64,000 bases of DNA from Candidatus Babeliales bacterium (GTDB lineage Bacteria; Babelota; Babeliae; Babelales; JACPOV01). The notes beneath the pieces were generated by a model that saw nothing but the letters and a program-made list of their open reading frames with translations, was not told where the DNA came from and ran no database searches. A program made the translations under genes and the position numbers. The stretch spans positions 1 through 64,000 of the forward strand of contig JAGVLQ010000002.1 in NCBI GenBank assembly GCA_020054235.1, in the 5' to 3' direction. Shown here piece by piece: positions 17,071 through 20,141 of the stretch; position 1 is the first letter of the stretch; the number at the start of each line of letters is the position of its first letter.

Positions 17071-17562
17071 GTGGTTATTATTGGCATAGACCCCGGTTTT
17101 TCATTTACTGGTTACGGAGTTTTGAAAAAAGAAAATAACAAAACTTTTCTGCTCGATTACGGGTATTTAAGTTTACCTCAAAAAAAGCATTTATCGGAGC
17201 GTGTTGGCCTTTTTTATGGTTTTTTTCAAGAGAAAATTATCCGACATTCTATATCAGAATTAGCTTTAGAAACCTCTTTTTTGGGTAAAAATGCTCAGAA
17301 TTTTTTAAAGCTTGGTTATTTGCGTGGGATTTTGTATTTGCTTGCAGATCAACATAAGCTTGCTTTACATGAATTTTCTCCGCGTGAAGTTAAACAAGCG
17401 GTTACTGGTTTTGGAGGAGCACAGAAAGATCAGGTAGCGCGCGTGATTATGCAGTTATTTCCTAAGTTGCCGGCACAAAAAAAGGCCGATGTAACTGATG
17501 CACTGGCAGTGACCTTGTGTGGCCTATGGCGCAGTAAATCAGTTAGTCAGTTTTTAAAGTAG
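17071..17562 (+). CDS. ruvC: Holliday junction resolvase RuvC
   Basis: 163 residues. RuvC motifs are IGIDPGFSFTGYGVL (first catalytic Asp), LALETSFLGKN (Glu), and KADVTDALAVTL (two C-terminal Asp), with SPREVKQAVTGFGGAQKDQV between. It cuts four-way junctions with RuvAB, which are not in the window. The start is GTG at 17071, with AGAAGG upstream. It converges with the next gene, with 5 bases between the stops. Confidence 0.95.
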   Translation: MVIIGIDPGFSFTGYGVLKKENNKTFLLDYGYLSLPQKKHLSERVGLFYGFFQEKIIRHSISELALETSFLGKNAQNFLKLGYLRGILYLLADQHKLALHEFSPREVKQAVTGFGGAQKDQVARVIMQLFPKLPAQKKADVTDALAVTLCGLWRSKSVSQFLK

Positions 17563-17567
17563 AATAT

Positions 17568-18302
17568 TTACTTTACACCAAAAAATATCTTTAAATTTTT
17601 ATAATCATTTGTAATTACTTTTTCTAGGGTTGCTTTAACAAAGTTCGTTAACTGAAGAAGAACAAAAAGAATATCTTGTTCTTTTCCTTCAGCTTGAAAT
17701 TCTTCCGCTAAAATACTATTTTCAAGATCTAGTAGCTCAGTATTTTTTTTATTTAAGACCTCAATCTTTCTTGCAAGGTCATTATTTTTAGTTTGCAAAA
17801 ATTTCAACATTTTAGCTCGATTGATATTTTCCATAATGCTATTTCTTTGATTTGCAAGCTCTTTGCCTTGCGCTGATTCTTTTTTTATGGTGCCCTTAAT
17901 AAAATTTATCATCTCCTTGTTAATCGGAAACCCTTTTTCTTTATTGGCAATAAGGGTAGGTTCAATGTTTTTTTTATAATTTTCTGCAAGAAGTTTTAAT
18001 AATTCCTCAGCAATCATTTTTATGCTTCTAAACTGGTTGAAATATTCCTTAGTTTTTGTGCTTTTGGCGTCAAACGCTGTTTTCATTATATATTGACTAA
18101 TGCCTGCAATCATATCCTGCCATTCCTTAACCTCAGATGGACCAATTGCTTGAGTTAATAAATTGTCTTTTGCAAATGCAACGGTATGAGCGCGTATAAG
18201 CGCTTGAATAACTTGATCTTTTTGTTGTGCCTCTAATGAATTATATACATAGAGAGAAGCTATCAAAAAAATCGCACGGCGGATCACTTTTATTGCATTC
18301 AT
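17568..18302 (-). CDS. Exported coiled-coil protein of unknown function
   Basis: 244 residues with a signal peptide of about 25 residues (AIFLIASLYVYNSLEAQ end). The rest is mostly helical, with a likely coiled coil at about 140-200 (MLKFLQTKNNDLARKIEVL). I see no catalytic motif. It is transcribed alone and converges with ruvC. Confidence 0.6.
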   Translation of the reverse strand: MNAIKVIRRAIFLIASLYVYNSLEAQQKDQVIQALIRAHTVAFAKDNLLTQAIGPSEVKEWQDMIAGISQYIMKTAFDAKSTKTKEYFNQFRSIKMIAEELLKLLAENYKKNIEPTLIANKEKGFPINKEMINFIKGTIKKESAQGKELANQRNSIMENINRAKMLKFLQTKNNDLARKIEVLNKKNTELLDLENSILAEEFQAEGKEQDILFVLLQLTNFVKATLEKVITNDYKNLKIFFGVK

Positions 18303-18490
18303 AAGGGGCCTCTTTTTTATTTATATTATACATACTTAAACCCTAGCACAGAGAATATTCAAATTGCAATAAAAGCATCATGTATGTTGTAAATAAAGAC
18401 CACAAGATCTATTTTGCTTTGTGTAATTTTGTAAAAAAAATGAGCTCCATTATTTTCCATGAGCCCAATTATTAAATATTTTGCGATCTC

Positions 18491-18519
18491 TTGACTTTTT
18501 AATTCTGTTTTTTTTACGA
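18491..18519 (+). promoter_or_regulatory. Promoter candidate for the 18567 gene
   Basis: TTGACT (18491-18496), 17 bases, then TTACGA (18514-18519), about 48 bases before the start codon. The rest of the 264-base gap holds nothing I recognise. Confidence 0.4.
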
Positions 18520-18566
18520 TTTTTGAATAAAAAGGTAGAGATAAACCTTAAAAAAGGGAGAAGCGC

Positions 18567-19049
18567 ATGGGATACAGCAATGCAACCGCTCATCGCAAAA
18601 CTCCAGCTTTAATTAAAGCAGATCTATTGGCATTATCCAAAGTTATTAGAAGTCCTTTTACCGAAAAAGATATTTTAGATTTGCAAGATGAATTTCTTTC
18701 CAATGGTTTTCATTATCTTAAAGTAAAAAGCATTCAAGATGGTAGAAGAATCATCAATACGTTTCTGTATTCATTAAAAGGGTATTATCATGATATTGGG
18801 TGTTTAAGCTTGGCTGATGTTTGCTTGCCGGATAACATTAGTGATATCTATGAATTATTAGAATGGTATGGTTATTTGAAGTACGATTGCTTAGAAAATT
18901 TTTTTATCGATCAATGGTATTGTGACTTTCTTTGGATTGAAGCCACGGAAGAACTTTTGCTCTCTCCTTGGTTTTGTACCTTTTCTCAGATGCTTGAAGA
19001 TTTTTCACTTAACAAAGAAATTCCCATTTTTATCATTTCATATTATTAA
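18567..19049 (+). CDS. Conserved-looking cytoplasmic protein, unknown
   Basis: 160 residues with no signal peptide, rich in aromatic residues and acidic toward the C-terminus (LLEWYGYLKYDCLENFFIDQ and onward). A ribosome site AAGGGAG precedes the ATG. I recognise no family. It is the first gene of a same-strand run with the cysteine-rich mini-protein, VKOR and DoxX genes, so a link to that group is possible but unproven. Confidence 0.6.
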   Translation: MGYSNATAHRKTPALIKADLLALSKVIRSPFTEKDILDLQDEFLSNGFHYLKVKSIQDGRRIINTFLYSLKGYYHDIGCLSLADVCLPDNISDIYELLEWYGYLKYDCLENFFIDQWYCDFLWIEATEELLLSPWFCTFSQMLEDFSLNKEIPIFIISYY

Positions 19050-19074
19050 TCTTTAAACAGAGGAATTTTTTATT

Positions 19075-19248
19075 ATGGAAAAAAAACATTTTTGCTCTGG
19101 TTGCTGTGAAAAATGCAAAAATAGTTGCATGAAAAATTGTAAAAGTTGTCCAACAACCAATGAATGCTCCAAAAAATGCACTGGTTGTTGCGCTGCATGC
19201 AAGGGCAAATGTATGAATAAATGCCAATCAACCTGCAAAAAGTGTTAA
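19075..19248 (+). CDS. Cysteine-rich mini-protein, metallothionein-like (57 aa)
   Basis: 57 residues with 16 Cys, 11 Lys by eye, and no signal peptide. Two halves repeat each other: CSGCCEKCKNSCMKNCKSC and CTGCCAACKGKCMNKCQSTC followed by KKC. Spacings are CxxCC, CxxC and CxxxC. This composition suits thiolate metal clusters, as in metallothioneins, or a helical Cys ladder. It matches no family I can name. AGAGG lies upstream and a terminator hairpin overlaps its end. VKOR and DoxX genes follow. Metal binding is inference. Confidence 0.75.
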   Translation: MEKKHFCSGCCEKCKNSCMKNCKSCPTTNECSKKCTGCCAACKGKCMNKCQSTCKKC

Positions 19249-19269
19249 TTATAAGCAGGGCACTTTTTT
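19237..19269 (+). terminator. Terminator overlapping the end of the Cys-rich gene
   Basis: AAAAAGTG (19237-19244) pairs with CACTTTTT (19261-19268) around a 16-base loop. The left arm is inside the coding end. Confidence 0.5.
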
Positions 19270-19334
19270 GTTTAATGCTTGACAAAAAGTTTGCGTTGCG
19301 CGAAGTTAAAAGCAATTAAAAATAGGAGTCCGCC

Positions 19335-19727
19335 ATGCTTTCTACTATTATATTTCTTTCGCTTCTTGGTTTTTCTTTATCATTTTATGCCTATATTTTG
19401 GAAAAAAAAATAAAATCTAATCCAACATACAAAGCTGTCTGTGATATTTCTGATACATTTTCTTGCAGCAAACCTTTACTGAGTGAATATGGTGAAATTT
19501 TCGGTTTCTCTAATTCATTGCTAGGAATGCTTTTCTATGCAACTATGGCCATATTGGCTTTTCTGGGCAGAACGAATCTTCTTTTTTACCTTTCTGTTGC
19601 ATCACTTTTTGCCTCTGCATTTCTTGCTTACATTTTATATTTTAGAATTAAAACGGTTTGCTTGATCTGTACTACCATTTATGGAATCAATATTCTTTTG
19701 TTTTTAGTTATGTATACGTATCATTAA
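19335..19727 (+). CDS. VKOR-family disulfide-forming membrane protein
   Basis: 130 residues with four hydrophobic helices. The vitamin K epoxide reductase pattern is clear: CDISDTFSCSKPLLSEYGEI, then GFSNSLLGMLFY, and the active CLIC motif in the last helices. Bacterial VKORs reoxidise DsbA-like proteins using quinone, replacing DsbB. No thioredoxin-like partner is fused or adjacent. It lies 86 bases after the Cys-rich gene and 21 bases before the DoxX gene. Confidence 0.9.
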   Translation: MLSTIIFLSLLGFSLSFYAYILEKKIKSNPTYKAVCDISDTFSCSKPLLSEYGEIFGFSNSLLGMLFYATMAILAFLGRTNLLFYLSVASLFASAFLAYILYFRIKTVCLICTTIYGINILLFLVMYTYH

Positions 19728-19748
19728 TATTTTTAAAGGGAAAAAAAT

Positions 19749-20141
19749 ATGCATAATGTAAACCTCGGTTTATTGATTATAAGAGTTGGACTTGGTTTTA
19801 TATTTATGGTTCATGGTTATCCAAAACTTGTTGGTGGTATTAGTAGTTGGCAATGGCTTGGTAGCCAGATGGGTTTTTTAGGTATTCATTTTTTACCAAT
19901 TATGTGGGGTTTAATTGCTGCGTGTGTTGAATTTTTTGGAGGGGCATTACTTGCTTTAGGCTTTGGCACGAGATTTATTTCATTGCTATTGGCATTTCAG
20001 ATGTTTATAGCACTCTTATATCATCTAAACAAAGGGGATTCGTTTGCTGTTTATTCTCATCCAATCGCGCTTTTAGTCGTATTTGTTGGATTGGTAATTA
20101 CAGGAGCTGGTCGATTCAGTTTTGATATGTATTTCAAATAA
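19749..20141 (+). CDS. DoxX-family membrane protein
   Basis: 130 residues with four hydrophobic segments. DoxX features include LLIIRVGLGFIFMVHGYPKL near the N-terminus and CVEFFGGALLALGFGTR in the middle. DoxX proteins are small inner-membrane proteins often found with redox genes, and their exact activity is poorly defined. AAAGGG lies upstream. It is probably co-transcribed with the VKOR gene. Confidence 0.88.
   Translation: MHNVNLGLLIIRVGLGFIFMVHGYPKLVGGISSWQWLGSQMGFLGIHFLPIMWGLIAACVEFFGGALLALGFGTRFISLLLAFQMFIALLYHLNKGDSFAVYSHPIALLVVFVGLVITGAGRFSFDMYFK

Follow-up and report, generated by a model that had tools for sequence, protein, structure and literature searches.

The stretch of DNA analyzed here (the window, 64 kb in length) belongs to a 1.25-Mb genome, in 29 contigs, which we take to be from the Dependentiae (TM6), a bacterial group living inside protists. 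As listed in Table 1, it carries a small gene whose product, here called P0001, translates from an ATG start as MEKKHFCSGCCEKCKNSCMKNCKSCPTTNECSKKCTGCCAACKGKCMNKCQSTCKKC. In agreement with the preliminary description, this protein has 57 residues, of which 16 (28%) are cysteines. Its N terminus reads MEKKHFCSGCC..., it is rich in lysine, and it contains one aromatic residue in all. Also as described earlier, a VKOR gene and then a DoxX gene lie downstream on the same strand. At 16580-16945 of the window is a gene for a 121-residue protein with a signal-like N terminus and two similar cysteine-containing segments (KHEICEDESTCPE / THEACHDEATCPE).

Table 1. Features at the P0001 locus and at the related loci discussed in the text
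Feature	Position	Strand	Basis
160-aa protein of a Dependentiae family without Pfam match (44/101 genomes)	18567-19049	+	Comparison of 101 genomes
AGAGGA, Shine-Dalgarno-like, 10 nt before the P0001 ATG	19059-19064	+	Sequence
P0001, 57 aa, 16 Cys, 13 Lys; candidate half-size Csp-like metal store	19075-19248	+	Sequence, AlphaFold
VKOR family protein, PF07884, E = 6.6e-29; C-x-x-C motif CLIC present	19335-19727	+	Pfam
DoxX family protein, PF07681, E = 8.4e-14	19749-20141	+	Pfam
Full-length Csp-like protein, 34 Cys, E = 5e-27; DUF326 above cut-off	Contig C17, 71347-71730 (L105:5336-5761)	- in L105	Profile search of own genome
MauE/DoxX-like membrane proteins after full-length Csp	L087:1982-2494; L086:992-1504; L093:2120-2620; L100:1746-2240		

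P0001 is the product of a real gene. Its open reading frame is the only stop-free stretch of at least 40 amino acids with at least 18% cysteine in the window, and dinucleotide-preserving shuffles (n = 60) gave a mean of 0.05 such stretches per window, with a maximum of 8 cysteines; the cysteine content is thus far above chance. Synonymous codon choice is similar to that of the window's genes. Judged by eye, the sequence has no visible signal peptide or hydrophobic stretch, as the preliminary description had stated. An inverted repeat 3′ of the stop codon (aaaaagtg/cacttttt) was considered as a terminator and rejected, since it folds no better than shuffled sequences (z = -0.47). The two similar halves reported earlier were also recovered: when aligned (CSGCCEKCKNSCMKNC / CTGCCAACKGKCMNKC), they are identical at 9 of 16 residues, six of these being cysteines, although the likeness is mostly that of a common cysteine register, because 70 of 1,000 shuffles with the cysteines held fixed equaled it. 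At the nucleotide level, the halves show five synonymous codon differences, including TGT/TGC swaps at cysteine codons.

These observations bear on the possibility that the open reading frame is not functional, being either a lineage-specific orphan or a decaying fragment of a Csp gene. The preliminary description had made its case depend on orthologs that keep the cysteines; none was found in four sister-genus genomes, and distant look-alikes in the same register turned up only in three other genomes. The lack of a sister-genus ortholog would suit a nonfunctional frame, as would the neighboring genes, which are conserved elsewhere without P0001. Against this reading speak the 16 cysteines in helical register (see below), the synonymous cysteine codon changes between the halves, the ribosome-binding site, and the unremarkable codon usage, and we regard it as the least probable of the readings considered.

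We then examined the neighborhood. P0001 had been proposed to form a thiol- or metal-handling unit with VKOR and DoxX; as one functional unit, the three would be comparable to bufferin clusters (a DoxX gene plus a cysteine-rich copper-binding peptide), many of which contain doxX genes (PMC12452194). The shared strand fits this proposal, as does the best NCBIfam match of the DoxX protein, which is to the HvfX family (E = 1e-13, below the cut-off). The P0001 gene lies only 25 bp from the stop codon of the upstream 160-residue protein gene, a family member usually found beside ruvC, as it is here, versus 86 bp from the VKOR gene. Our comparison set consisted of 101 Dependentiae genomes, surveyed with a cysteine-pattern scan and profiles. 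VKOR and DoxX genes were paired in 15 of the 23 VKOR-bearing genomes (a few other cases were cut by contig ends), and a cysteine-rich gene beside the pair was absent from all other loci in the flank searched, leaving the adjacency in 1 of 23 VKOR-bearing genomes. The adjacency of P0001 to VKOR is therefore local, and VKOR-DoxX is probably a separate conserved pair. Neither an MNIO (DUF692) nor a DUF2063 gene was found by Pfam and NCBIfam among the seven genes at 16580-20141.

Full-length Csp genes show associations of a related kind. In four genomes, a MauE/DoxX-like gene lies directly 3′ of the full-length Csp gene; Pfam identified it in G002 and G064, whereas sequence resemblance pointed to it in G001 and G020. 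Its product may act together with Csp in handling thiols or copper. VKOR and Csp genes occur together in 10 of the 23 VKOR-bearing genomes, where 5.9 would be expected (P = 0.03 by Fisher test, without correction for kinship), and in G054 the VKOR-DoxX pair lies ∼2 to 5 kb from Csp, efflux, and ATPase genes. Both the MauE/DoxX-like genes and the co-occurrence speak for a joint unit. Against this stand the 14 of 15 VKOR-DoxX pairs without any such gene, the absence of a recognizable MNIO gene among the flanking genes scanned, the missing Sec signal, and the 86-bp gap. A joint unit of P0001, VKOR, and DoxX is not supported on balance and appears very improbable.

The spacing of the cysteines is the most distinctive property of P0001. 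They follow an alpha-helical period: compared with random cysteine placement, the resultant at 100 degrees was 0.81 (P = 0.0003) for the first half and 0.69 (P = 0.0013) for the second. CXXXC pairs (i+4) numbered 10 versus 4.4 expected (P = 0.001), the dominant spacings were i+3, i+4, and i+7, and CXC (i+2) did not occur at all. This pattern places the cysteines along a single side of each of the two predicted helices. AlphaFold, run on the single sequence, likewise predicted a helical hairpin, with helices at residues 3 to 21 and 28 to 48 and a short one at 51 to 56 (pLDDT, 79; pTM, 0.52). A model built on an alignment of five half-size sequences, with a relative as lead, was confident (pLDDT, 86) but had more broken helices.

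Such a helical arrangement of thiols favors a Csp-like thiolate core over a classical metallothionein. If P0001 were a general metallothionein-like buffer of Zn, Cd, or Cu, it would have no preformed bundle and would fold only around metal clusters. Its 57 residues, 28% cysteine, single aromatic residue, and lysine richness are indeed of metallothionein size and composition, and its lack of a Pfam or NCBIfam match would also agree. We nevertheless judge this reading rather unlikely in view of the missing CXC, the strictly alpha-helical spacing, the helices predicted with good confidence, and the wide occurrence in the phylum of helical, full-length Csp-like proteins whose cysteines are similarly spaced.

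Proteins in which disulfides staple a hairpin with twin CXXXC motifs are known, and P0001 might instead be one of this type (CHCH/twin-CX3C or vanabin-like), serving as a thiol-redox protein or a lysine-mediated metal binder and possibly oxidized by VKOR. The VKOR gene next door would suit such a protein. A Foldseek search of the P0001 model against the PDB gave no significant match; the only one listed, Vanabin2, points in the same direction but is insignificant (E = 7.4, probability 0.07) and was rejected. VKOR normally acts at the outer face of the membrane. P0001 lacks a signal peptide and should thus be cytosolic and reduced, which, together with the unconserved adjacency to VKOR, makes a disulfide-stapled hairpin improbable.

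We found full-length Csp-like proteins (∼130 residues, 15 to 34 cysteines) in 26 of the 101 Dependentiae genomes, and a profile built from them matches Csp3s of solved structure (E = 5e-4). The window's own genome encodes one on contig C17, next to genes for a multicopper oxidase, an outer-membrane efflux protein, a carbonic anhydrase, and a DUF305 protein; the cluster also has a HAD-type fragment that may belong to a P-type ATPase. The P0001 gene lies outside this copper operon. Multicopper-oxidase, efflux, or P-type ATPase genes adjoin some of the full-length Csp loci inspected. Exported-looking proteins were seen near Csp genes as well, namely, Csp1-like proteins with 20 to 24 cysteines adjoining the cytosolic Csp in G002 (L087:616-1086) and G064 (L100:788-1168) and a 314-residue protein with 18 cysteines in G090 (L088:2062-3006).

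Proteins of about half this size that resemble P0001 occur in G007, G048, and G089 (L071, L072, and L073), with two tandem copies in G089. Including P0001, the half-size group has five members in 4 of the 101 genomes, and a profile of the group found no more. The G048 and G089 loci are syntenic with each other and not with the P0001 locus. Most matches to the CxxCCxxC motif, suggested earlier as a search pattern, were TTG/TGC simple repeats; the half-size look-alikes in three genomes came to light in the cysteine-pattern scan of the 101 genomes. Searches of the tblastn type through plasmids, viral contigs, and GTDB contigs returned no relatives of P0001. Two other matches were rejected, one in G002 (E = 0.0018) that reads across two stops within the gene of a repeat protein and the RBX1 RING proteins, the sole matches of the half-size profile (E = 0.4), which were hit by cysteine content. 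In G009, an exported-looking, lysine- and cysteine-rich protein of 99 residues (L146:4760-5059) has Cx3Cx2Cx3C repeats in the register of P0001.

How far P0001 resembles Csps was assessed in several ways. Pfam and NCBIfam searches gave no family match for it, DUF326 (PF03860) included, and its best match among sequences of solved structure was RkCSP3 (E = 0.018). When P0001 was scored against the profile of the full-length proteins from Dependentiae, it obtained 40 bits, compared to ∼21 bits for composition shuffles, none of which reached 40 (0/200). When the cysteines were held fixed, however, shuffles averaged 37 bits, and 29 of 200 equaled or exceeded P0001. In pairwise comparison with the full-length Csp of the same genome, 510 of 1,000 cysteine-fixed shuffles scored as high, and the reversed sequence scored about equally. 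P0001 was not picked up when its genome was searched with the full-length profile (E ≤ 10), and a profile-profile comparison of half-size and full-length proteins gave a probability of 19%. At the level of sequence, then, the Csp likeness is carried by the cysteine register, to which the non-cysteine residues add nothing significant; homology beyond that register was not detectable, as cysteine-fixed shuffles score as well. Because these shuffles and the reversed sequence score alike, the comparisons do not establish common descent with Csps. With two main helices in place of four, and without a hit to DUF326, P0001 is not filed here as a Csp.

The best explanation, to which we assign a probability of roughly one half, is that P0001 is a cytosolic helical hairpin rich in thiols and that, in the fashion of a Csp, it binds several soft metal ions, Cu(I) being the likeliest. 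In MtCsp3, all cysteines come from helices and point into the core without forming disulfides. A CXXXC pair within a single helix serves each of eight Cu(I) sites (PMC5171941). By analogy, the reduced P0001 hairpin would take up Cu(I) on its CXXXC pairs and between the helices, each pair, on the cysteine-lined side of its helix, holding Cu(I) between two thiolates. Metal binding itself is probable, and copper is somewhat favored as the main metal. Two hairpins may pair, although this is less likely than not; they would then form a four-helix bundle with ∼32 cysteines, close to the 34 of the Csp encoded on C17. Amoebae turn copper against ingested bacteria (PMC11197307), and P0001 could buffer copper met in the vacuole of the protist host, alongside efflux and oxidase genes elsewhere in the genome, and so may have a role in host-imposed copper stress. 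The initial guess of intracellular metal storage therefore stands as the best-supported function and is sharpened to a putative Csp-like helical design for Cu(I).

A bolder and tentative extension is that P0001 represents a Csp reduced to its minimum. Its two-helix hairpins would assemble with one another into a cysteine-lined four-helix Cu(I) bundle, each hairpin amounting to the half-unit from which four-helix Csps could have arisen by duplication. If this is true, Dependentiae keep a graded copper-storage kit with full-length cytosolic, exported, and half-size members, and a Csp-like hairpin of 57 residues would offer a model for the origin of cysteine-lined helical bundles. It would be smaller than any other Csp-like protein that we know of, and our literature search found no description of such a hairpin. 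The occurrence of Csp-like proteins in about a quarter of the Dependentiae genomes and their copper-gene neighbors at some of the loci suggest a copper defense theme in residents of phagocytic protists.

Among known systems, bufferins and HvfA-type copper-binding RiPPs with HvfX (DoxX) share with P0001 a small cysteine-rich protein and a nearby DoxX gene. They are marked by a Sec signal and by adjacent MNIO (DUF692) and DUF2063 genes, whereas P0001 has no Sec signal, no MNIO or partner gene recognized among the flanking genes scanned, and another cysteine pattern. Bacterial metallothioneins are similar in size, cysteine fraction, and presumed metal buffering, but their CXC, CXXC, and CC clusters without helical register are not a feature of P0001, which has no CXC, an alpha-helical cysteine spacing, and no family match. 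The half-size proteins of G007, G048, and G089 (51 to 65 residues, 10 to 15 cysteines) are like P0001 in lacking a signal peptide and in having the CXXXC register and two helix-forming halves; they differ in gene neighborhood and have low identity outside the cysteines. The full-length Csp-like proteins of Dependentiae are twice as long, and the C17 copy sits with copper efflux and oxidase genes, but they are likewise rich in lysine and cysteine and free of a signal peptide, with a similar cysteine spacing spectrum in the C17 copy. Csp3 proteins (MtCsp3, BsCsp3, and RkCsp3; DUF326/PF03860) have ∼110 to 135 residues and form a four-helix bundle in one chain, in contrast to the 57 residues and two main helices of P0001, for which neither a DUF326 match nor homology beyond the cysteines was found. 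What P0001 has in common with them is a cytosolic location, as judged from the missing export signal, and a helix face of many cysteines with multiple CXXXC pairs.
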